Positions 1 through 62,775 of a stretch of 64,000 nucleotides of DNA are shown here, piece by piece. Position 1 is the first letter of the stretch, and the number at the start of each line of letters is the position of its first letter. A program made the translations under genes and the position numbers. Origin of the DNA: Chloroflexota bacterium (GTDB taxonomy: Bacteria > Chloroflexota > Anaerolineae > Promineifilales > Promineifilaceae); contig JAGNBF010000009.1 of NCBI GenBank assembly GCA_018004935.1, forward strand, positions 1 to 64,000. The letters run 5' to 3'. A model generated the notes under the pieces. The model saw only the letters and a list, made by a program, of their open reading frames with translations. It did no database searches and was not told the DNA's origin.

Positions 1-1931
1 TTCCAGGGGGGATTGGTGGGGGGATTGGTGACATATCCGAACTGATGAAGGGGAAGTTCGACGATATTTTTGCCAATGTAGGTGACATCTTCGAGCCGAT
101 CAAAGAACAGGCACGGGGCCTGGGTGAGACGTGGGCCGGTGTAGTTAGTGGGCTGAGTGAGAAGTGGGACGGGTTTAAGGCAAAACTGACCGGGTTTGCC
201 AGCGGGTTTAGTCTGGGCAATTTGCAAGCAAAGTTCCAACCCATTCTGGATGCGTTGGCTCCGATCAGACCTGCATTCGAGAATGTCTTCAACACGGTTA
301 TTGAGAAATTCACTCTATTAGGTCAGTTTCTCAGCACTCAGGTTCAAAAGGTTCGTGATTGGGCGACCGAGAACGAAACTACGATAACCAATTTCCTCAC
401 CTTAGTAGGGACGATTGTCGGGGCCATCGTTACCGTAGTTAGCTATGTGTATACCAACATGGCGGGCATCTTCGACATCGTGTTGGTTGCACTTGATGGA
501 TTTATTACTTACCTGCTGAATGTAGTGACCTACATCATGCAGATCGCTACAGGGGATTGGGCAGGGGCGTGGCAAACCTTCAAGGATCAGGTAGTTAATT
601 TTGTTGCCACGGTTCAGAATGTTCTGATCGCAATTATTGATTGGGTAGCCGGATGGTTTGGGAGCAGTTGGGAAGGCATAAAGACCACCTGGGAAGGGCT
701 GTGGACACAGATTAAAGAAATTGTGTCTCTGGCCTGGGAAGCTATCAAACTTGCCCTGAGTGAAGCGTGGTTGGCAATCAAGACCTTCATTGATGAGCAG
801 ATCGTCGCTTTCGTTGCCGGGTGGGCTGCGTTTTGGGATGGGCTGAAGCTGACGGTCGAAACGATTTGGGAAGCGGTCAAGACGTTTGTTGTTACCAAGT
901 TACAAGAAGCGTTTGCGTCCATGGGGCTGGACCTGGACGCGATGAAAGCACGGTGGGAAACGATTTGGAATGACGTGAAATTGATCGCCGAAACGGTGTG
1001 GGGGTTGATTAAGGATACGGTTTTGACGAAGGTGACTGAGGTCAAGACGGATGTTGATACTAAGATCACCGAATTAAAGACCTGGTGGGCAACCACCTGG
1101 ACGGAGATTAAGACCAAGGTTGAGACAATATGGGGGGAGATCAAAACGGCGGTTTTGACAAAAGTCTCTGAGGTTAAAACCGATATTCAGACAAAGATCA
1201 ATGACGTGAAGGCATGGTGGGAAACGACATGGGGGGAAATAAAAACTAAAGTCGAGACTATCTGGGCAGAAATCAAAACCGCAGTTGAGACGAAACTGAA
1301 CGAGATCCGCACTTTGATTGAGGAAAAGATCAATGCCGCCAAAAACTGGATCGGGGATCAGGTCGGAGGGTTTAAATCTGTTGGGGAAAATATTATCAAC
1401 GGAGTGAAGGATGGGGCGATGGCGATGGCCGGGGCGCTTATTGCAGCGGTGACGGGGGTTGTAGAAGATGCAATTGCGGCCGCCAAATCCCTGCTGGGGA
1501 TTGCATCCCCGTCCAAGGTCTTTATGGCAATGGGTGTCAATATGTTAGAAGGGATGGCCATCGGACTGGAAAACACTCAACCTATTATTGACCAGTTGGG
1601 GCGGGTAAAAAACGTGATTGTGGGTACGATGAAGCCAATGACGGCTGAGATGAAGGCGGAGATGGAGAAGGCGTTGGATGCAGAGCAGTCCGCCAGACGA
1701 ATTACATTAGCCGACAAACGCGGCCGCATCATCCCCCCCATTCCATCTATTTCAGACATTGCTCCCCAAACACCCCCCATCATGGATCCCGCCATGATGG
1801 AAGGGCTAAAGACTCAGGGGAAGAGGGAGTTCCATTTTCACTTTGAGAAATTGATCTTACCGAATGTAACTAATGGGCAGGAGTTTATCCGCGATCTGAC
1901 CGATTACACGCTGTCTTACGGGAGCAGGTGA
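1..1931 (+). CDS. Tail tape measure protein, C-terminal part (truncated by window edge)
   Basis: The reading frame is open to the left edge (in frame from base 3), so the first methionine at 45 is not the true start and this is the C-terminal ~640 residues. The protein would set tail length and be ejected into the host during infection. A hydrophobic stretch lies near residues 120-165. Residues ~190-440 are a long series of amphipathic helical repeats rich in Trp, of the type WETTWGEIKTKVETIWAEIK, which is typical of tape measure proteins. A second hydrophobic patch follows (MAMAGALIAAVTGVV). The next gene begins four bases after the stop and encodes a distal tail protein, the usual order in siphoviruses. 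Confidence 0.9.
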   Translation, partial: PGGIGGGIGDISELMKGKFDDIFANVGDIFEPIKEQARGLGETWAGVVSGLSEKWDGFKAKLTGFASGFSLGNLQAKFQPILDALAPIRPAFENVFNTVIEKFTLLGQFLSTQVQKVRDWATENETTITNFLTLVGTIVGAIVTVVSYVYTNMAGIFDIVLVALDGFITYLLNVVTYIMQIATGDWAGAWQTFKDQVVNFVATVQNVLIAIIDWVAGWFGSSWEGIKTTWEGLWTQIKEIVSLAWEAIKLALSEAWLAIKTFIDEQIVAFVAGWAAFWDGLKLTVETIWEAVKTFVVTKLQEAFASMGLDLDAMKARWETIWNDVKLIAETVWGLIKDTVLTKVTEVKTDVDTKITELKTWWATTWTEIKTKVETIWGEIKTAVLTKVSEVKTDIQTKINDVKAWWETTWGEIKTKVETIWAEIKTAVETKLNEIRTLIEEKINAAKNWIGDQVGGFKSVGENIINGVKDGAMAMAGALIAAVTGVVEDAIAAAKSLLGIASPSKVFMAMGVNMLEGMAIGLENTQPIIDQLGRVKNVIVGTMKPMTAEMKAEMEKALDAEQSARRITLADKRGRIIPPIPSISDIAPQTPPIMDPAMMEGLKTQGKREFHFHFEKLILPNVTNGQEFIRDLTDYTLSYGSR

Positions 1932-19235: not shown

Positions 19236-20525
19236 ATGCAACTGACAACCAGCACCATAACAGCAGTAATATCCACCTTGACCGAATTGGTCAACAATGC
19301 CTCGTTGAATGTCTCGCGTAATCGCTACGACTTTTATGCCGACCGTCTGCGTGTGGCAACTACAGAAAAAGACTTGCTCTCCGCAGTCAATCGGTACTCC
19401 GAATTGCTCGGTTGCCCGGTGTTGACCGAACACGCAACGGCCAATATCCTGCGGGCATCCAGCGCGGCCGACGCTAAGTCCGTCTATCAGTGGTTGCGCG
19501 AACAGCCGAAGATAGCCATTGCCATGACGAAAATAGGATATGCCCACCGGGATGACATCATTGCCGCACTTGTCGAAGCTTACGAAACACAAGAAATCAA
19601 GGTGGGCTTTCAAAAGCCACGCCGCTCGTTTGACATCAATATCTCGGCCACGGTTACTCAAGCCCTCGCTCATGGCGACGATGCGAAAGCGGGAAACGCT
19701 CAATTGTTCCGGCGTTGCGATGTGCGTGGCGGGTTGCGCCTGCCGTTTTACAGCGGGAATGCCATCGGTGGAGCCATGCGCGATCTTCTGGCGGATCACT
19801 TTCTGTCATCGCTGGGAATAAAGCTAGATCGCGCCGAACCTGCGCTCAACATTTGGGCCTTCCACTTGCTCTACTCAGGTGGCATCATGGCAGATGGAGC
19901 AATCCCCAAAGAGTTTGAGCGGGTTCTTACCGGCGCGGCCAGTGGCACAATGCGGAGTGATGGTGTCCGGCAACTTCGCAACACGTTACCATTTTTCTCG
20001 ATGCTGGGGGGAATTGGTAAATCTCCGATGGAAGGCTATGTCTATATCAACGACTTGCGGCCGCAGTGCCTTGAGTGGGGCACGGGGGATGAGTCGGTCA
20101 ACGATATGATGTCCTGGCGGTTTATAGCCCGTCGTGACGACTTTGAAGGACGTACCAGTAAGGCACAAAAGGAGTTGGGGGACGCTGGAGCGGAAACAGC
20201 CAACACGTCTATGTTGGCGAATACCGAGTGCCTGGCGGAGGGTGTGGTGCTAGAAGGCGGCATTGATGTCTCTCGCCACGTAACCGACATTGAGATGTCG
20301 GCCCTTGCACGTGGTCTGATACTCTTGCAAGAGCACGGTTATCTTGGGGGTAAAAAGCATCGGGGCTATGGGCGCGTCAACATTGAGTATCGCACCGATC
20401 TGGTTCTTGAGCCGACCCTATATGATGAGTATCTGCAAGAACACAAGGCTGAAATCCTCGCTTACCTACAGTCCATTGGTGCGTTTCCGCAGGCCGGACA
20501 GGTTGAGCAGATGGGGTTACTTTAA
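19236..20525 (+). CDS. csf2: Type IV CRISPR Cas7 (Csf2-like) with extra N-terminal helical domain
   Basis: Start after AGGAGAAGAAT. Residues ~131-429 read as a Cas7/RAMP backbone subunit: AQLFRRCDVRGGLRLPFYSGN, AIGGAMRDLLADHFLSSLG and LYSGG are the typical Csf2 signature, and LGGKKHRGYGRV (370-381) is the glycine-rich RAMP loop. Cas7 subunits coat the guide RNA in the effector filament. Residues 1-125 are almost all helical with no RAMP features; normal Csf2 lacks most of this. It may be a fused small subunit (Cas11), which is otherwise missing from the operon. It starts an operon whose genes all overlap. Identity as Csf2 is a family reading; the fusion is inference. Confidence 0.82.
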   Translation: MQLTTSTITAVISTLTELVNNASLNVSRNRYDFYADRLRVATTEKDLLSAVNRYSELLGCPVLTEHATANILRASSAADAKSVYQWLREQPKIAIAMTKIGYAHRDDIIAALVEAYETQEIKVGFQKPRRSFDINISATVTQALAHGDDAKAGNAQLFRRCDVRGGLRLPFYSGNAIGGAMRDLLADHFLSSLGIKLDRAEPALNIWAFHLLYSGGIMADGAIPKEFERVLTGAASGTMRSDGVRQLRNTLPFFSMLGGIGKSPMEGYVYINDLRPQCLEWGTGDESVNDMMSWRFIARRDDFEGRTSKAQKELGDAGAETANTSMLANTECLAEGVVLEGGIDVSRHVTDIEMSALARGLILLQEHGYLGGKKHRGYGRVNIEYRTDLVLEPTLYDEYLQEHKAEILAYLQSIGAFPQAGQVEQMGLL

Positions 20526-21253
20526 TGCACGCCACTGATTTGATTACCGCGTGTTTGACCGACGCCCAAAAGGAGCCGCTTCCCGAAGCGGCTCGATCTG
20601 GTATCTGTTGTGTGACCGGTGTGACGACCGAAACCATCGCCCGTAAGCAGTTATTCGGGTCAAGTTTTTGCGATCTAAATCTACTGGCCTGCCCTGAATC
20701 TCCCCTCGTGGGCGTGGGTGTTTGGTACGCATTCCAGTTTGGCGCGTATGGCATAGACGCTGAATCAGGCCAGGCCAAAAAGCGCAAAAAGAAACCGGAG
20801 GTAATGTCTTGCTGGTGGACAGATGGGCAGACATTCCACGAGATGGGTAAGGCGCAGATCCGCGAACTGGTCTTACGGGGTACAACCGCAAAACATTGGG
20901 CCGGATGGGTGACAACAACCTACAAGAAACACGGGGCCTTGCGCTCCCCCGTCAACGGTACACCCTTTGGCAGTTGGGGCTTTGATGATTTACTGGTACG
21001 GGCCAACGATGTAACCGCCGTGCTGGAAATGTGGCGTAAGCTACGCCAGGCCCAGAACAATGGCATCGGGCGTACAGGGATTGAAACATTGGATATTCCC
21101 ATCCCGATTATGATCAAGGTTGGGATGGGGTTTTGTAACGACTTTCTGGCCTGGGCGCGGCCGCGTTACCAATCACCGCTCTATCAGTTTCTGGTGTACC
21201 TGCTTCCCAGCCAGGAAGAGTTGCGCGAAGGATACAGCGATGGGGATATTTGA
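20525..21253 (+). CDS. csf1: Type IV CRISPR large-subunit-like protein Csf1 (Cas8-like)
   Basis: Start overlaps the csf2 stop (TAATG). The 242-residue size fits Csf1, the short type IV replacement of Cas8. Cys28, Cys29, Cys49 and Cys56 could form the N-terminal zinc site, though the first pair is CC rather than CxxC. The later features CWWTDG, VTTTYKKHGALRSPVN, GIGRTGIETLDIP and PLYQFLVYLLPSQEEL are the sort of landmarks I associate with Csf1. In the effector it would hold the 5' end of the guide and start target contact. Best support is its place between csf2 and csf3. Confidence 0.75.
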   Translation: MHATDLITACLTDAQKEPLPEAARSGICCVTGVTTETIARKQLFGSSFCDLNLLACPESPLVGVGVWYAFQFGAYGIDAESGQAKKRKKKPEVMSCWWTDGQTFHEMGKAQIRELVLRGTTAKHWAGWVTTTYKKHGALRSPVNGTPFGSWGFDDLLVRANDVTAVLEMWRKLRQAQNNGIGRTGIETLDIPIPIMIKVGMGFCNDFLAWARPRYQSPLYQFLVYLLPSQEELREGYSDGDI

Positions 21254-21941
21254 AAACCAACTGCGCGAAGGAAAAATGCTGGCCTTGTTGCCTATGCATA
21301 AGCGCAAGGTAGAACAGGCAAAAGCCGATATTGCCAGAATGCTGGAGTCGTGCCAATCACCTTATGTCTCTCTCAGTTGGGGCAAACAATCTATCTGCCT
21401 CATGCACATGGTTTATAGCCTCGCCCCCGATGTGCCTGGACTGTTCTTCCGTGAACCCGAAACGCATCTGATAGCTGATTTCGATAGCGTCATCAAACAA
21501 TTCTGCGCCAGGTGGAACATCCAATACTTTGATGTCATGCTTAACAAGCCAAGCCATCAAGCAGCCGCAGACGAACAGGAACAGGCACACGGGTGGGATG
21601 GTGTTTTTATGGGGTTTGCGCGACACGAAAGCAAGGTACGAAAGTTTACGCTATCGAAGGCTGATAAACACAATATCTTTACCTACAAGAACGGGTTTCG
21701 CCGCTCCTGCCCCTTGCGCCTTTGGTCAGATATGGACATTGCCGCCTATGTCGCGCCCAGAGACATCCCGATGTTATCTCTTTACCGAAAGTTTGGTTTT
21801 AGTATTCGCACATCCGCAGGCATCGAGATGGGGACAGCCGAAAAGCCGGATCATAGCGAGATTGGTTTTGATAATATGACTGGGGAACAGAAGGACAAAA
21901 TCCTTGAATCGCAACGAAGGAGAAAGCATGAGCAAGCATAA
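21240..21941 (+). CDS. cysH: CysH-like PAPS reductase-fold protein of type IV-B loci
   Basis: ATG 21240 is preceded by GAAGGA and overlaps csf1 by 14 bases. The 233-residue protein has a PP-loop-like SWGKQS (46-51, canonical SGGKDS), RHESKVRKF and a C-terminal CPLRLWSDMDIAAYV, the layout of adenylyl/phosphoadenylyl sulphate reductases. The C-terminal catalytic CGLH-type motif of true reductases is not present; instead it ends GIEMGTAEKPDHSEIGF. A cysH-like gene is the hallmark of type IV-B CRISPR loci, where its function is unknown. Its place between csf1 and csf3 makes a role in sulphur assimilation unlikely. Confidence 0.8.
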   Translation: MGIFENQLREGKMLALLPMHKRKVEQAKADIARMLESCQSPYVSLSWGKQSICLMHMVYSLAPDVPGLFFREPETHLIADFDSVIKQFCARWNIQYFDVMLNKPSHQAAADEQEQAHGWDGVFMGFARHESKVRKFTLSKADKHNIFTYKNGFRRSCPLRLWSDMDIAAYVAPRDIPMLSLYRKFGFSIRTSAGIEMGTAEKPDHSEIGFDNMTGEQKDKILESQRRRKHEQA

Positions 21942-22611
21942 AATCCAACCGCTGAAAATCACGTTTGAAATGGATACGGCTGGGATTATCTATGATCCGC
22001 TCGCCCCGCCCATGTTGGATAGCCTGATTGATTGGTCCTTGTCGCCGATGGTACGCACCAAAGGCGATCCCGCTCCAGGCAGAGGCGACTTGGTAGATGA
22101 AATCCGTTTGCCGTTAGGGACATGGCATGTTGGTTCTCATTGGGGTTGGTGTGCCTCGGCCCTCATCCCCGCTGAAGAGGGAACCCCACAGGAAACCATT
22201 CAGCACTTTCGCAAGAAGTTCCGGGCCAACCGGATCAGTCTCACGAATGGTGTGCCCAACCTCCAAAGCGGGGCGACCCGCGAATACAATTTACCATTTA
22301 CCGTCCAATTGGTTGACAAGTTAGTCGCCTATTGCCTCGGTGACAGACATACGATTGACAGCCTGTTGAGGCGCAATGTGCATTATCTTGGCCAGAAGAA
22401 GCACCGTGGCCGCGGCCGCGTGGAGAGCATCGCCGTTGAGGTCGTCGAGAGTGATTACTCCCTGGTGTGCGACGGAAAGGCCATGCGCTGGTTGCCTGTG
22501 GCAGAAGGGTTGCGTGAGGTGCGTTTGCGGCCGCCCTACTGGAATAACAATGATCGCGTACCGTGTTGCGAGGTGGGTGATGCTTACGCAGGAGAGATAC
22601 ATCAGCCATGA
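21928..22611 (+). CDS. csf3: Type IV CRISPR Cas5-like subunit Csf3
   Basis: Start at ATG 21928 after GAAGGAGAAAGC; the frame overlaps cysH by 14 bases. The 227-residue protein starts with a RAMP-type strand (IQPLKITFEMDTAG) and carries the glycine-rich loop LGQKKHRGRGRV (154-165), nearly the same as that in Csf2. Its size and second-half features (REVRLRPPYWNN) fit Csf3, the Cas5 homologue that caps the 5' handle of the guide. Its presence with Csf1, Csf2 and CysH defines the type IV-B-like set. Confidence 0.8.
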   Translation: MSKHKIQPLKITFEMDTAGIIYDPLAPPMLDSLIDWSLSPMVRTKGDPAPGRGDLVDEIRLPLGTWHVGSHWGWCASALIPAEEGTPQETIQHFRKKFRANRISLTNGVPNLQSGATREYNLPFTVQLVDKLVAYCLGDRHTIDSLLRRNVHYLGQKKHRGRGRVESIAVEVVESDYSLVCDGKAMRWLPVAEGLREVRLRPPYWNNNDRVPCCEVGDAYAGEIHQP

Positions 22612-25563: not shown

Positions 25564-28446
25564 CTAACGGCTCGATGCGGCCGCACGCTCCAGATTCAAC
25601 GCCAGCAACCGTTCCAGTATCTGCTCATCCGTGAGGGTGTGGGGCCAGCCGTAGGCGTCCAGGACGGCGTGGTCGAGAGTGGTGTGGATGTGGTCGAGTT
25701 CGTCTATTTGTTCGAGGGAAATGACACCTTTGGTTTCTTTGGCCCAGCGCACCCGGTCGCGCAGTTTGCCTTTGAACGACTCACGGTAGAGGGTGAGGGC
25801 GTTGTAGAGGTTGGTTAGGGTGAGGTTGTTGATGATGTGGCTAGGGATGACCGTGTCAATGTCTTCTGCCGGTGGATTGAGCCAGGCGGTGCGGAACTGG
25901 TCAAGCTGGCGGGCGGCCGCGGCGATGGCCAGGACGCGAGGATCGTCAGCCTCAGCCGGTTCCTGGCCGGGGGGCCAGGGGAAGGGGAAGGTTTCAAATG
26001 TGGTGGTAGGGGTGTAGCGTGGATCATTCCCTTTTCCAAGCCACGTTCCTGCTCGTAACGCCCAAAGTTCGTGCGGCCGCGAGTGTAAAGCACCCAGAAA
26101 ATAATAGTCATCACGTGCGATTACACCTAATGCGCCATCAGGTAATGAATCCGCATCAAGAAAGGTAAAAACCATATGCTTTGAAACAAGCACCGTTACA
26201 ATGTAACGCCCCAAACCGGAAATAGCTTCTCTCATATCTGTGCCGGGGCGTCTAAAGAGCCACCAGTTACTTAGTGTCCGTTCCTCACGGTTTGTTATGC
26301 GTGCCGGTTTTACGTGTTCTTCTACATACTGAAAAGGCAAGAGATAGGCAGAGGCAGACTCCTTTGTCATTCTTGTAAAATCTATTGCCCAGACATTTCG
26401 AGAGCGACGAAGAATATCAATGCCATTCTTTAGCCGCTTCAAGACATCACTGTTTGGGCGGCCGTTTGGATTATCATTCGCAGACATCATTTTCATTGCT
26501 AGACTTTCAGGAATATCAAATGGTCCACCTTTTGCAAACCCGAGAAAGGCCAGATCGGAATTTTCGGGTAATTGTTTAGCTATGGTAATATCAACTTGTG
26601 AAGTCAGGTCAGGGTTGATATGCGTGACTGACCGCCCATTTAGTTGATACGTTTTCTCGAAGCCATTGTCGAATCCAATCATGGAAACACGCACGGCGGC
26701 ACCATCAAGTATCCAGGGTCTATCGCTCCAGGCCATAAAAATATCACCCGATTCTTTTATTCTCTCCAAGACTGTTCTGTTTGATCCCCCACGTATGGAA
26801 TTAGTTGCCAAAAGCCCCGCCCTTTGCGCCTGATTGGAAGCAATGGCGGTACGGGCTTTTTCAAACCAATAGCATACTAAATCCGCATCGCCAGGGACAC
26901 GTCCCTGATATAAACGTTGAATCTGATGGGCATAATCGTGCGAGAACCCACTGGTACCCAAGCGCCGCATGCCCAAGAATGGTGGGTTGCCGAGAATTAC
27001 GTCGGCCTTTGGCCATGTAGCTTCAACGGCGCGGCCTTGTTCGTCGTAGGCAAGGATGGCGTCTTTGTGTTCGATGTTGTGAAGCGGCCGCAAGATCGGC
27101 TCGGTAAAGTCACTGAAGCCGTTCTCTTTGCGCCATTGCAGATAGCCTATCCAGACCGTGATTTGGGCCAGCTCGTGGGCGTAGGGGTTAATCTCAATCC
27201 CATAGAGCTGGGCCGGGCTGACGCTAAGGTTAATGACGCCCAGGCCATGCGCGGCCGCGAAGGTGATAACCTCTTTCTGCAAATCGAGGAGTAGGCGCAG
27301 GCTGACGTACAAAAAATTGGCGCTGCCACATGCCGGGTCCAGTACCCGGATCGTGGCAATCCGGTGGGCGAATTGGGCCAGGCGATCAAACACGGCTGGC
27401 CGGTTATCCGGGTTAGTCGGTTGTTGGCGGCACCAGTTCCTCAGTTCGCGCCATTCGTCGCGCAAGGGCTTCATCAGCACTGGTTCAACGATGAGGAGAA
27501 TGTCGTCGCGGCTGGTGTAATGCGCTCCCAGTTGTGCCCGTTTGTCCTCGTCAATAACCCGTTCGAATAGTGTGCCGAAGATGGTGGGGTCAATGGCTGA
27601 CCAATCTTGCCGCGCCGACTTCAGCAAGTGGTGAATGATGTCGCCGGGTAGCTCCGGGACAAAGTTATCGTCGAAGAGACCGCCGTCGAAATGGGGAATG
27701 CGGTCAGGGCCGAAGAAGCCGCCGTCGCGCATGGTGGTAAAGAGGGTACGCAGGCCATCCATGAAATGCTTGCGGTTGGCTTGTTGTCGCTCAATGAGGG
27801 TGGTAAAGAGTTTGTTGGTCAGCAGGCCCAGGTCCTCAGCAAAAAGGCAGAAGAAGAGGCGGATAACGAAGTGGGCTAACCGCTCTGGCGGGGCCGGGTC
27901 TTCGTGGTGTTTGCTCCATTCCTGCAAAGTGCGCACGACCTGGACAAAGGTATCTGCCGTGGCCTGGGTCGCTTTCTCCTGGGTTTGGGTGGGTTTGAAG
28001 GAATCTGGCTCATAGAAGGCACGACGGAGCAGAGCCAGGCCGTCGCCATTCAGCAGGCGGTCGAAGGTAATCTCATGAAGCTGTTTGACTGTGCCGGTGA
28101 AGTTGGTGTGGATGATGATGCGTTGTAAGTCGCTGGTGATGAGGAGCGGGGGATTCTCCAGGTTCTCGCGGTAGAGGAGCAGTTGTTGGTAGGCTTTCTC
28201 CAGGTCAGCGTGAGTGCCTTTATATTCCCAGATGAACCGACCACGATACCAGACATCGGCGCGGCCGCGGCCGCCGGTGGTTTTGTCGGTGGAAGCCTCG
28301 AAGGTAAAGAACTCTCCCTTTGGATCAACAACATGGGGAAGCTCGTGCCCCACCAGGTTGCACACGTCATAGAAATGGGGCTGTGCGGCCGCGGTTTCCT
28401 TGAGTTGGATTTTGTCCCAGCGTTTGACGAATTGTTGTGGGGTCAT
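25564..28446 (-). CDS. Type IIL (MmeI-like) restriction-modification fusion enzyme
   Basis: A 960-residue single-chain enzyme. The N-terminal nuclease has D64...E74-Y-K76 (ADVWYRGRFIWEYKG), a PD-(D/E)xK site. A helical linker leads to an N6-adenine methyltransferase with AdoMet motif VLDPACGSANFLY (368-380) and catalytic NPPF (487-490). The last ~350 residues are the target recognition domain plus C-terminal helices (TTTFETFPFPW). The order nuclease-methylase-recognition is that of MmeI-family enzymes, which cut near the site they half-methylate. All key residues are present, so it looks active. The overlapping gene upstream is a HEPN gene. It would protect the lysogen from other phages. Confidence 0.85.
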   Translation of the reverse strand: MTPQQFVKRWDKIQLKETAAAQPHFYDVCNLVGHELPHVVDPKGEFFTFEASTDKTTGGRGRADVWYRGRFIWEYKGTHADLEKAYQQLLLYRENLENPPLLITSDLQRIIIHTNFTGTVKQLHEITFDRLLNGDGLALLRRAFYEPDSFKPTQTQEKATQATADTFVQVVRTLQEWSKHHEDPAPPERLAHFVIRLFFCLFAEDLGLLTNKLFTTLIERQQANRKHFMDGLRTLFTTMRDGGFFGPDRIPHFDGGLFDDNFVPELPGDIIHHLLKSARQDWSAIDPTIFGTLFERVIDEDKRAQLGAHYTSRDDILLIVEPVLMKPLRDEWRELRNWCRQQPTNPDNRPAVFDRLAQFAHRIATIRVLDPACGSANFLYVSLRLLLDLQKEVITFAAAHGLGVINLSVSPAQLYGIEINPYAHELAQITVWIGYLQWRKENGFSDFTEPILRPLHNIEHKDAILAYDEQGRAVEATWPKADVILGNPPFLGMRRLGTSGFSHDYAHQIQRLYQGRVPGDADLVCYWFEKARTAIASNQAQRAGLLATNSIRGGSNRTVLERIKESGDIFMAWSDRPWILDGAAVRVSMIGFDNGFEKTYQLNGRSVTHINPDLTSQVDITIAKQLPENSDLAFLGFAKGGPFDIPESLAMKMMSANDNPNGRPNSDVLKRLKNGIDILRRSRNVWAIDFTRMTKESASAYLLPFQYVEEHVKPARITNREERTLSNWWLFRRPGTDMREAISGLGRYIVTVLVSKHMVFTFLDADSLPDGALGVIARDDYYFLGALHSRPHELWALRAGTWLGKGNDPRYTPTTTFETFPFPWPPGQEPAEADDPRVLAIAAAARQLDQFRTAWLNPPAEDIDTVIPSHIINNLTLTNLYNALTLYRESFKGKLRDRVRWAKETKGVISLEQIDELDHIHTTLDHAVLDAYGWPHTLTDEQILERLLALNLERAAASSR

Positions 28447-29624
28447 GGGTTATATATATGCCTGTTTATTATTGGGTTAAGAAGGTCGTTTTTTGTCAAT
28501 AGAGACTTCCACCAGTTCAAAAGTGAGTGGCGTACAATATATTCAAAAGTGTGAAGTAGTAATGGTGTATCTTTTGCCACCCATCTCCCATTCATACCTA
28601 CAATCGTGGCGGCTAAGGCCGGGGGCTTTTCAACAAAGCGTCCCCCAGCGTGAAGTGGTGGCATTGACATCGGGGGTGGAAAAGGTATTCCCGTATGCAG
28701 AGCTTTCGAGCGAAGCTTATAAACCGTTGTTAATAACTCTTTCATGCCGCTTTTGCTCCACTGAATCTGAAAACCCTCTGGGGGCCTATCCTGTGGAGGT
28801 TTCGGTAAAAACTCAATGATAAAATCAATGAATTTTTTGGTAGACCCAAGTTTATCGGCAATCAGATCGGCAACTTGTTGTACGAATCCGTCTCCCCCTT
28901 TCTCTTGTAACAATTTGACCAACTCTGGCGAAGATGCATTCAATCGCTCTACCGCTGGCTCTTGGGCTGGTCGCCAATGATTAGCTGCCACTTCTATGGC
29001 TGATACCATCAATAGCCACGACAATTCTGGCTCACTCTCGGCTATCCAGACTGCATTCTGATAGTTTCTTGCCGCTCTAGCCAGAGCAATTGATTCTACT
29101 GGTTGAATTGAAGGCAAGTCCATGAAAAGGCTTAAATCTCCTAATCGCCGTTGTCCTAGCACTCTTGGTAAAACAGGCTCACGATAAGTTGCTATGGGCA
29201 AAATAGGATCAGGGGAATGCTTTGCCAGAGTAGGATAACCTTTCGGATCGCCGCCTGGCTCAAATCTGCGGGAGCGATACCCTGATTTCAGTCGTATGCC
29301 AAGCAATAACGAAAGGAGAGAAGCAATTTCGTCGTTAATAAAGCCACCATGAAATCCTTGAACATTGGTTTTGTTCGTCGGTTCCATAGGTTTGTAAGAT
29401 TCATAATATTCCGCTCGCAACATAATGAACGGTGCTAAACTACCTTCTCTTGGTGCTGGTACCGTATTTAAAAACTGATAAGGACCTGTTTCGGTTGTGA
29501 ACTCACCGACGATGTACGCATCAGTAAATAAAGGGAACTCGTAAGTTATCTGAACTGGAGTTCTCTTTATATATTCCTTCCAGTTTGCGTAAGCAGGCGA
29601 GCCAGTTATTTCTTCAGGATGCAT
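28443..29624 (-). CDS. Apea-like HEPN protein coupled to RM enzyme
   Basis: A 393-residue protein whose stop overlaps the RM start on the minus strand (ATGA), so both come from one transcript with this gene first. The C-terminal ~180 residues are helical, and KLRSKALHTG holds the R305-x4-H310 motif of HEPN ribonucleases of the Apea type. The N-terminal ~190 residues are an unrecognised alpha/beta part. HEPN proteins in defence loci often cut RNA to stop phage growth; here it may be a back-up to restriction. No GCGGCCGC palindrome lies in the gene and its codon use looks more AT-rich than neighbours, which suggests recent arrival. Confidence 0.65.
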   Translation of the reverse strand: MHPEEITGSPAYANWKEYIKRTPVQITYEFPLFTDAYIVGEFTTETGPYQFLNTVPAPREGSLAPFIMLRAEYYESYKPMEPTNKTNVQGFHGGFINDEIASLLSLLLGIRLKSGYRSRRFEPGGDPKGYPTLAKHSPDPILPIATYREPVLPRVLGQRRLGDLSLFMDLPSIQPVESIALARAARNYQNAVWIAESEPELSWLLMVSAIEVAANHWRPAQEPAVERLNASSPELVKLLQEKGGDGFVQQVADLIADKLGSTKKFIDFIIEFLPKPPQDRPPEGFQIQWSKSGMKELLTTVYKLRSKALHTGIPFPPPMSMPPLHAGGRFVEKPPALAATIVGMNGRWVAKDTPLLLHTFEYIVRHSLLNWWKSLLTKNDLLNPIINRHIYNP

Positions 29625-58516: not shown

Positions 58517-58543
58517 ACTAGAAAGACAAACCAATGGAGATGA

Positions 58544-58572
58544 AAAAGACCCTGCGCAAGCGGGGTCTTTTC
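58544..58572 (+). terminator. Terminator before radC
   Basis: AAAAGACCC pairs with GGGTCTTTT around a 10-base loop, with the T tract in the stem end. It argues that the radC frame, open from 58534, really starts after it. Confidence 0.8.
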
Positions 58573-58593
58573 GTTGTAAGGAGCAGTGACGCG

Positions 58594-59271
58594 ATGGGAC
58601 GCCGATTTGTGCGCGAGTTGCCAGAGTTTGAGCGGCCGATGAACCGCATTAAGTACGCCGGGCCGGGGGCCTTGAGTGACCGGGAATTATTGGCCGTCAT
58701 CCTGGGGACGCCGGACGCCCTGGATATGGCGACTGAGGTGCTTACGCAGGTGGGGCAGGCGTTGGACTGGTTAGACCTGGGAGCGCAACAGCTTCAGCAG
58801 GTGGAAGGGATTGGGGAACAAACGGCCTGGCGGTTGTTGGCGATTGCCGAGATGGGTAAGCGGATGGCGCGGCCGCTGACGCCGCGTGTCACCATCACCT
58901 CCCCTTCGACCGCCGCCGACCTACTGATGAGTGACATGATGGGGTTATCCCAGGAAGAGTTGTGGGTCATCTCGCTGAACACGCGCAACGAGGTGATAGG
59001 CAAGGAGCGAGTGTACCGGGGGTCTTTGAATACGTCGGTAATACGGATAGGCGAGATATTGCGAGTGCCGATGCTACGGAACGCGGCCGCGTTCATTGTC
59101 GCGCATAACCACCCCAGTGGGCAACCGGAACCATCGCCGGAAGATATTCGGGTGACGCGGGAGATCGCCGAGTGTGCCAAGACGATGGATATACCGCTGT
59201 TGGATCATGTGATTATCGGACATCACCGATACGTTAGTTTGAAGGAGAGGGGGTTAGGGTTTGATCGTTAA
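58594..59271 (+). CDS. radC: RadC-like JAMM-domain protein
   Basis: Start set at ATG 58594 by AAGGAG (58578-58583) and by the terminator upstream. The 225-residue protein has the RadC layout: an N-terminal UPF0758 start with GPGALSDRELLAVILGT, a helix-hairpin-helix (LQQVEGIGEQTAWRLLAIAEMGKR) and a JAMM metal motif H171-N-H173-P-S-G...D184. RadC proteins are frequent on mobile elements; a direct repair role is disputed and the JAMM site suggests a peptidase-like hydrolase. All motif residues are present. Confidence 0.9.
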   Translation: MGRRFVRELPEFERPMNRIKYAGPGALSDRELLAVILGTPDALDMATEVLTQVGQALDWLDLGAQQLQQVEGIGEQTAWRLLAIAEMGKRMARPLTPRVTITSPSTAADLLMSDMMGLSQEELWVISLNTRNEVIGKERVYRGSLNTSVIRIGEILRVPMLRNAAAFIVAHNHPSGQPEPSPEDIRVTREIAECAKTMDIPLLDHVIIGHHRYVSLKERGLGFDR

Positions 59272-60207: not shown

Positions 60208-60262
60208 TTCTCTGGCAATGGGCCAGGGAAGGCGTGAACCATTTTTAGTAAGGAGAAACATG

Positions 60263-61747
60263 ATGAAGGTTGAAGTATCGCGTGAAGATTTGTTGGCGTG
60301 TTTGGATTTAGTGAGTAAAGGAGTTAGCCCGCGCTCCACTCTGGCTATTCTGTCGTCAGTTTTGATCAAGGCGACAGCGGCGCAGGAAGGGTTTGCCAAT
60401 GGAGTACTGGAGTTGACTACCACGAATCTGGAACTGGTCATTCGTCTGCCTATGTCAGCTACGGTGTTTACTCCAGGCGCGGCCGCGGTGCCGTTCCGGG
60501 TACTGGTAGACACGTTGAAGGAGATCGGTGACGAAAAGGTGACGCTGGAACTGGATACCCTCCGGTTTAATGTGCGCTTTTCCACAGGTATCGCCTCGCT
60601 GATTGCGCAGACGGCTGAGGAGTTCCCTCTGGTTCCTGTTCCCCCTGATGAGGAAATGGGTGTGCTTATGCCAGCAGTGAATATGTCGCGTCTGATTGCC
60701 CGGACCACCTTTGCTGCCGCGAGTAAGGATGATCGCCCCATTCTGACTGGTGTTTTGATGGAGATTGGCACTGAAGCCAAGACCCTGCGCGGGGTAGCGA
60801 CGGATGGTTATCGGCTTTGCTTGGCTACGGAAACGGTGGGGTATGTGCCGGAATACGCTCCACGAGAAGCACTTCCATTGGCTCAGGCCGAGGGGGTTAA
60901 CCTGATCAAGAAGGTGCAAACCACGCTAGCACAGGCAAACATCTTGACGGTTGAGGATGTGGTGAAGACTGGGCGGACTGGGTTGTTGGGAATCAAGGGG
61001 TTGGGCGAAAAGACGGTAGATCACCTGATTGGCGTCTGCCAAGCCATTATGGAGCGGCGGGGGACTCAGCGCACTACCTTCATTGTTCCGGCGAGTAGTC
61101 TGGATGTTGTTGGTCGTATTATCAGCAAGATTGCATGTGAGCAAGTTGTGATGTATCAGTCGCGCCAGTTGACCTTTCAGATTGGGTCGGCGATGGTGTC
61201 TACCCAATTTATTGAAGGCAATTTCCCGATGTATCAGCCGATTTTGCCCAACGAAAACCGGGCGGTGACGGAATTGCTGTTTGTCTGTGAGGCACTGCGC
61301 GGAGCACTGAAGTTGACGGATGTTCTGGCGAAGCACACCGGACACAGCGCTAAGGTGCGTGTGGGGGAGAAGGATGGGCAGACGGGGATTTTCCTCGCGG
61401 CCGCATCAGCCGAACATGGTGACAACAGTCAGTTTGTTCCGGCGGTGTTGACAGGCACCCGGATGGAGTTGGCGGTCAATAGCCAGTTTATCCGAGAAGG
61501 GTTGGCGGTGATGGGTGAAGATGTGATCATGCGTCTGTCTAGCTCGACTGAGCCAGTGGTTCTGCGCCCTGACAACAATTCCTCCTCTTTCCTCTACCTG
61601 GTGATGCCGATGCAGTTTGGCAATGGCCAGTCGGATGCACCAGCGGCTCCATCCCAACCGGTCAGGCCCCAACCGGGCGAGGCCCAGCCAGTTGAAGAAG
61701 TGGCTACAACAGAGGCCGAAGCGATGGCGGTTGATGATGCTGAGTAG
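60263..61747 (+). CDS. dnaN: DNA polymerase sliding clamp with inserted helix-hairpin-helix domain
   Basis: Start at ATG 60263 (AGGAG seven bases upstream); ATG 60260 is the alternative. The 494-residue protein follows bacterial beta clamps throughout: domain 1 (MKVEVSREDLLACLDLVSKG; LELTTTNLELVIRLPM), domain 2 (ISRLIARTTFAAAS-like; LRGVATDGYRLCLA) and domain 3 ending VMPMQF, as in VMPMRL. Two additions stand out. Between the DGYRLCLA loop and FIVPASSLDVV, residues ~203-268 insert a helix-hairpin-helix unit (LAQANILTVEDVVKTGRTGL, then LGIKGLGEKTVDHLI). After the normal end, ~45 acidic, Pro/Ala-rich residues form a tail. It encircles DNA and holds the polymerase; the insert may add DNA or partner contacts. 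Confidence 0.93.
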   Translation: MKVEVSREDLLACLDLVSKGVSPRSTLAILSSVLIKATAAQEGFANGVLELTTTNLELVIRLPMSATVFTPGAAAVPFRVLVDTLKEIGDEKVTLELDTLRFNVRFSTGIASLIAQTAEEFPLVPVPPDEEMGVLMPAVNMSRLIARTTFAAASKDDRPILTGVLMEIGTEAKTLRGVATDGYRLCLATETVGYVPEYAPREALPLAQAEGVNLIKKVQTTLAQANILTVEDVVKTGRTGLLGIKGLGEKTVDHLIGVCQAIMERRGTQRTTFIVPASSLDVVGRIISKIACEQVVMYQSRQLTFQIGSAMVSTQFIEGNFPMYQPILPNENRAVTELLFVCEALRGALKLTDVLAKHTGHSAKVRVGEKDGQTGIFLAAASAEHGDNSQFVPAVLTGTRMELAVNSQFIREGLAVMGEDVIMRLSSSTEPVVLRPDNNSSSFLYLVMPMQFGNGQSDAPAAPSQPVRPQPGEAQPVEEVATTEAEAMAVDDAE

Positions 61748-62454: not shown

Positions 62455-62775
62455 ATGGGAAAGCAAGCGGTGGTAGGGCATAAAGTATTTGTTGAGCCGG
62501 ACGGCGTGAATGTGGAAGTTGATGTGGATGTGCGGGAACCGATTACGGTATCTGTTGGCGAGTTTCGCGGCCGTACTAACCTGAACATCCGTCATTGGTA
62601 TCAACGGGAGGATGGGCGGTTCGCACGGACGCAGAAGGGCGTCGTTATCCCCTTCGATGAGCGGGGGGCGTTCCTGGCGGCCGCGGTGGATGCGGTGAAC
62701 CTGGCAACGAAGGATGGGACGCAGGTGCGACTGGTGGTGGTGCAGGCGGATGGCACGGCGCAAGAGTTGATGTAG
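62455..62775 (+). CDS. PC4-like single-strand DNA-binding protein
   Basis: A 106-residue protein with ribosome site AAGGAGAAAGATC. LNIRHWYQREDGRFARTQKGVVIPFDERGAFLAAAVDAV matches the beta-beta-alpha core of PC4-type proteins (IRxWY...KGVxIPxxExxxLxxA). They bind single-stranded DNA and act in replication or transcription. The phage has no other visible SSB in this window, so it may fill that role. Confidence 0.6.
   Translation: MGKQAVVGHKVFVEPDGVNVEVDVDVREPITVSVGEFRGRTNLNIRHWYQREDGRFARTQKGVVIPFDERGAFLAAAVDAVNLATKDGTQVRLVVVQADGTAQELM

Follow-up and report, generated by a model that had tools for sequence, protein, structure and literature searches.

A predicted helix-hairpin-helix domain within the sliding clamp of a phage-like contig from Anaerolineae

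Few architectures in biology are, to our knowledge, as invariant as that of the sliding clamp: its partners exchange at a peptide pocket, and the ring itself hardly changes. Among phage clamps known to serve a purpose other than replication, the nearest case is gp45 of bacteriophage T4, which activates late transcription through gp33 and gp55 (PMC7892883, PMC2988020). The clamp described here is encoded on a 109,303-bp phage-like contig, the left part of which, a stretch of 64,000 nucleotides, constitutes the window analysed. It shares with bacterial DnaN (PF00712, PF02767 and PF02768; PHROG 947) all three domains, the DGYRL and MPM motifs and the whole fold, but differs from it in two respects: domain 2 carries a folded insert of 71 residues, and the chain ends in a disordered tail. 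As judged from its sequence and predicted structure, the insert is a helix-hairpin-helix (HhH) domain built into a sliding clamp, an arrangement which is new in that it was found in no other clamp examined, and which is represented by one sequence. A ring that gained a folded DNA- or protein-binding domain with its fold intact would show that the clamp is extensible, would provide a natural example on which clamps of additional grip or specificity could be modelled, and would allow tests of the means by which a phage distinguishes its clamp from that of the host.

The clamp gene (positions 60260-61744, forward strand) starts at an ATG preceded by a probable ribosome-binding site, AAGGAG (60249-60254, forward strand), and encodes a DnaN-type beta sliding clamp of 495 amino acids. 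The N-terminal, central and C-terminal clamp domains of Pfam were all recovered above the curated cut-offs (60.1, 43.6 and 43.3 bits versus 27, 27 and 24.4, respectively), the central one being broken into two stretches by the insert, and the protein matches PHROG 947 at 3e-44. In the AlphaFold2 model, the clamp core has a pLDDT above 90, and the monomer superimposes on beta clamps with a Z score of up to 42.6 (7evp; 364 residues, rmsd 1.6). The alignment shows that both pocket elements are retained, namely MPM and DGYRL (residues 182-186; 60803-60817, forward strand), the latter being the start of the strand which, by reference to the E. coli clamp, we take to line the peptide-binding pocket. 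Since the pore is of ordinary charge, the ring as such looks functional, and the idea that the insert compensates for a weak pore was rejected. Downstream of MPMQFGN, the protein continues into a Pro/Ala/Glu-rich tail (61622-61744, forward strand), which extends ~40 residues beyond the usual clamp end, is missing from the aligned clamps and is predicted to be disordered (pLDDT below 50 for residues 458-495); the C-terminus of clamps normally adjoins the peptide pocket. The host chromosome has its own DnaN, encoded on a separate contig (395 aa, no insert) and about 32% identical to the phage clamp over the matched segments. No DNA polymerase was recognised by eye or in the Pfam scans made among the longer open reading frames of the contig, and the phage clamp therefore presumably works with the host Pol III.

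Alignment with 39 DnaN proteins (40 sequences in total) showed that the phage clamp and DnaN are collinear over residues 1 to approximately 454, apart from a single clean insertion of 71 residues (202-272; 60863-61075, forward strand) between YVPEYA and TTFIVPASS. The alignment confirms the collinearity proposed in a sequence-only reading of this DNA, which had estimated the insert at ~65 residues and placed it at 60866-61076, within about a codon of the aligned boundaries. The insert occupies the loop following the DGYRL strand of domain 2; measured from DGxR up to the following [ILV]P motif, this loop spans 89 residues here versus 15-27 in about 100 other clamps, host DnaN included (a few values of 6, 13 and 64-72 arose from the search pattern and are artefactual). 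The 213 bases of the insert are open, in frame and similar in composition to the rest of the gene (GC 0.56 versus 0.55, GC3 0.66 versus 0.60), so that chance can be set aside. A remnant of an intein or an intron, either of which had been recognised from the outset as fatal to the domain interpretation, is contradicted by several features. At 71 residues, the insert is shorter than mini-inteins and falls short of the length criterion for inteins (over 100 aa), begins with REALP and ends with GTQRT, with neither a Cys/Ser/Thr start nor a His-Asn end, and lies in a non-conserved, variable loop; its frame is unbroken and nothing points to an intron. The insert is seen on one metagenome-derived contig only, as would be expected of an assembly artefact, but the continuous frame, the gene's own composition and the HhH fold argue otherwise, and it is improbable that a chimera would place an entire folding unit in frame. 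Taken together, we consider a remnant or an artefact the least probable of the explanations, to the point of being nearly negligible.

In the AlphaFold2 model of the full clamp, the insert consists of a disordered linker (residues 202-209) followed by three helices (211-225, 231-243 and 250-268) at a pLDDT of 71-86, whereas prediction of the isolated insert reached modest confidence (64 overall, 71-77 in the core). Helix 231-243, GIKGLG and helix 250-268 correspond to the general definition of an HhH, two helices connected by a GhG hairpin (hxGhGxK). The hairpin motif GIKGLGEKT (residues 244-252; 60989-61015, forward strand), located within GIKGLGEKTVDHLI at clamp residues 244-257, includes the G and K that are invariant in the alignment with domains resembling the C-terminal domain of the RNA polymerase alpha subunit (alpha-CTD). 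The PDB matches of the isolated insert were HhH domains with Z scores of about 8-10, from the Rad51/Dmc1 N-lobe, AF1548, alpha-CTD and NusA. The highest structural scores were obtained with the Rad51/Dmc1 N-lobe and the C-terminal domain of AF1548 (Z 9.8; rmsd 1.2 over 62 residues for AF1548), yet these are unrelated proteins with sequence identities of 22-28%, and the Foldseek E-values were weak (0.08 and above), which is not surprising for ~60 residues. The alpha-CTDs scored 8.3, 8.2, 8.1 and 7.9 (9dvu, 9dvt, 7vpd and 1z3e, respectively), tied with or below the Rad51-type HhH domains; the fold is thus alpha-CTD-like but not alpha-CTD-specific. In sequence searches, alpha-CTD ranked first (E 1.4e-4 for the isolated insert) and HHH_5 second, but the scores remained below the curated cut-offs of both families (18.3 and 21.9 bits versus 23.8 for PF03118; 18.7 versus 27 for PF14520), and we accordingly call the insert alpha-CTD-like without assigning it to PF03118. 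With alpha-CTD, its best sequence match, the insert shares the order of the HhH helices and the G and K of the hairpin; it differs in its shorter loop before the hairpin, in several DNA-contact residues and in its location inside a clamp. The models and matches support a compact HhH-type module, in line with the alpha-CTD-like core that the sequence-only reading had recognised. Among the closest sequence matches of the insert is a protein from a genome of the host's family (G664:C87) in which two alpha-CTD/HhH-like repeats are followed by an apparent sigma region 4.

To assess the distribution of the insert, we searched 2.9 million viral contigs for relatives of the whole insert-bearing clamp or of the insert region, and recovered no second clamp of this kind. 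Scans with the DGxRL pattern yielded 472 viral and 590 bacterial stretches, none of which encodes a relative of the insert region, and DNA patterns for DGxRL followed 55-65 residues on by a GhGxK hairpin produced 15 matches in viral and at least 118 in bacterial DNA (the bacterial scan covering one Asp codon), with none in DnaN among the matches listed. When the insert region was compared with 400 genomes from the phylum and 56 from the order, only RpoA and another HhH-containing protein were retrieved, the best match in the 400 Chloroflexota genomes being an RpoA. None of the aligned clamps carries the insert, nor was an insert-bearing clamp found in the Anaerolineae genomes with relatives of the large terminase (TerL) of the contig, a result of little weight because their phage contigs are short. 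The clamp of Caulobacter phage Sansa (461 aa), considered as a second case, was rejected, its additional residues being an N-terminal extension rather than a domain 2 insert. A related genome (G007:C46, 2902-5860) harbours two adjacent dnaN-like genes, encoding proteins of 382 and 409 aa, neither of which shows signs of the insert. No beta clamp with an HhH insert was found in the open-access literature, and, within this partial coverage, all searches agree with the initial impression that no such clamp has been described. The insert-bearing clamp is a singleton in the viral, bacterial, phylum and order collections scanned. This status, along with the variable length of the loop in other clamps, would be compatible with a passenger, that is, a folded domain accommodated in a permissive loop and doing little. 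However, the intact frame and the preserved HhH motif and hydrophobic pattern suggest that the domain is either kept or recent, and we regard a passenger as rather unlikely.

The clean insertion, the HhH prediction, the matches to DNA-binding HhH domains, the preserved G and K of the hairpin, the retained pocket elements, the ordinary pore charge and the clamp-binding-like motifs of five phage proteins described below lead us to favour, with a probability of roughly 50%, the possibility that the insert provides the phage clamp of this Anaerolineae element with an extra, sequence-independent grip on duplex DNA. Given that DnaN is a homodimer, the ring would carry two such alpha-CTD/Rad51-NTD-like modules, inserted at the far end of the domain 2 pocket strand and each hinged by its flexible N-terminal linker; the GLGEKT hairpin of each module would touch the duplex beside the ring, and this second grip would lengthen the stay of the clamp on DNA. 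The strand that starts with DGYRL in the pocket has the insert at its far end; judging by this topology, the insert probably leaves the peptide pocket free. The ordinary pocket would recruit the host Pol III as well as the phage's own enzymes with QLxLF tails. The residues aligned with R265, N268, C269, G296, K298, S299 and E302, which we take to be the DNA contacts of alpha-CTD, are K, T, T, G, K, T and H, respectively: the hairpin G and K are kept as G249 and K251, with K218 at the place of R265 and T252 at that of S299, whereas the replacement of N268, C269 and E302 by T, T and H speaks against the grip. The weakly basic charge of the insert (10 K+R versus 7 D+E) points in the same direction, and domains of the HhH fold bind proteins too. 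Since the insert is represented by a single sequence, there is no conservation to point to its functional surface.

The replaced contact residues equally favour the main rival explanation, that the insert recruits a protein partner, such as host RNA polymerase, a sigma-like factor or a replication protein, to phage DNA. The clamp would in effect resemble T4 gp45, a precedent for a transcription-activating phage clamp (PMC7892883, PMC2988020), but with the docking surface built in; gp45 itself belongs to another clamp subfamily and acts via the separate gp33 and gp55 rather than via an inserted domain. The structural and sequence matches of the insert include alpha-CTD and the C-terminal domains of NusA, which interact with both proteins and DNA. 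Nevertheless, no phage sigma-like partner was recognised among the contig proteins scanned, which are part of the full set, and no particular partner is pointed to, so that recruitment, while tentatively entertained, appears less probable than the DNA grip. The more specific scenario, in which a transcription-type docking domain couples phage replication to host RNA polymerase or another partner without the separate coactivators of T4, strikes us as doubtful. Finally, rather than binding DNA, the insert might shield or distinguish the phage clamp, for example if it blocked an unloader or inhibitor of the host. The coexistence of the host DnaN with the phage clamp could make it useful to tell the two apart, but a simple loop extension would serve as well, and we hold this explanation to be very improbable. 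In our ranking, the DNA grip is followed by recruitment, the passenger, shielding and, last, an artefact.

Five of the 151 open reading frames of the contig encode proteins whose last ten residues contain Q[LM]x[LM][FL], a clamp-binding-like motif for which the mean in shuffled sequences was 0.07; none of the 5000 shuffles reached five. One of these proteins, ending in QMGLL, is encoded in the window (19236-20525, forward strand), and the other four lie beyond it, at contig positions 64558-65709 (QLSLL), 68784-69605 (QLALF), 73455-74585 (QLALF) and 76418-77446 (QMMLF). Two of the five resemble N6-methyltransferases and two PAPS reductases. The same motif was found in none of the 77 open reading frames of phage Sansa, in none of 729 from viral loci around clamps and in 1 of 943 from bacterial loci. 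The excess over the expectation supports the view that clamp binding is important to the element, although the clamp targeted may be that of the phage or that of the host.

The contig encodes a large terminase of the GpA type (contig 91875-93698), ParA (32359), ParB (37174; contig 66742) and a tyrosine recombinase. By eye only, we also recognised a tape-measure-like protein (window 45-1931) and, towards the right end of the contig, probable capsid and portal genes. This gene content suggests a phage-plasmid or an integrating phage of Anaerolineae; comparison of the contig ends revealed no overlap. Relatives of TerL with 45-51% identity are present in several other Anaerolineae genomes, two of which belong to the host's family, making the host assignment plausible. 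The genome that includes the contig is of the Anaerolineae type, and was placed in Chloroflexota through the DnaN and RpoA sequences of its relatives. A gene of the RadC family, which has an N-terminal HhH-type region of its own (window 58534-59271), lies just upstream of the clamp gene, and close downstream is a gene resembling PC4 (transcriptional coactivator p15, ssDNA-binding; window 62455-62775). Around a PAPS-reductase-like gene, the region at window 19236-22611 contains a series of genes whose products look by eye like RAMP-type (type III CRISPR-like) proteins; the first gene of this run has no match in Pfam and matches only a family of unknown function in PHROG. On the strand opposite to the phage genes (window 25564-29624, reverse strand), a 960-aa protein which by eye resembles a fused methyltransferase-restriction enzyme is encoded beside a 393-aa protein, and the pair possibly represents a defence module.
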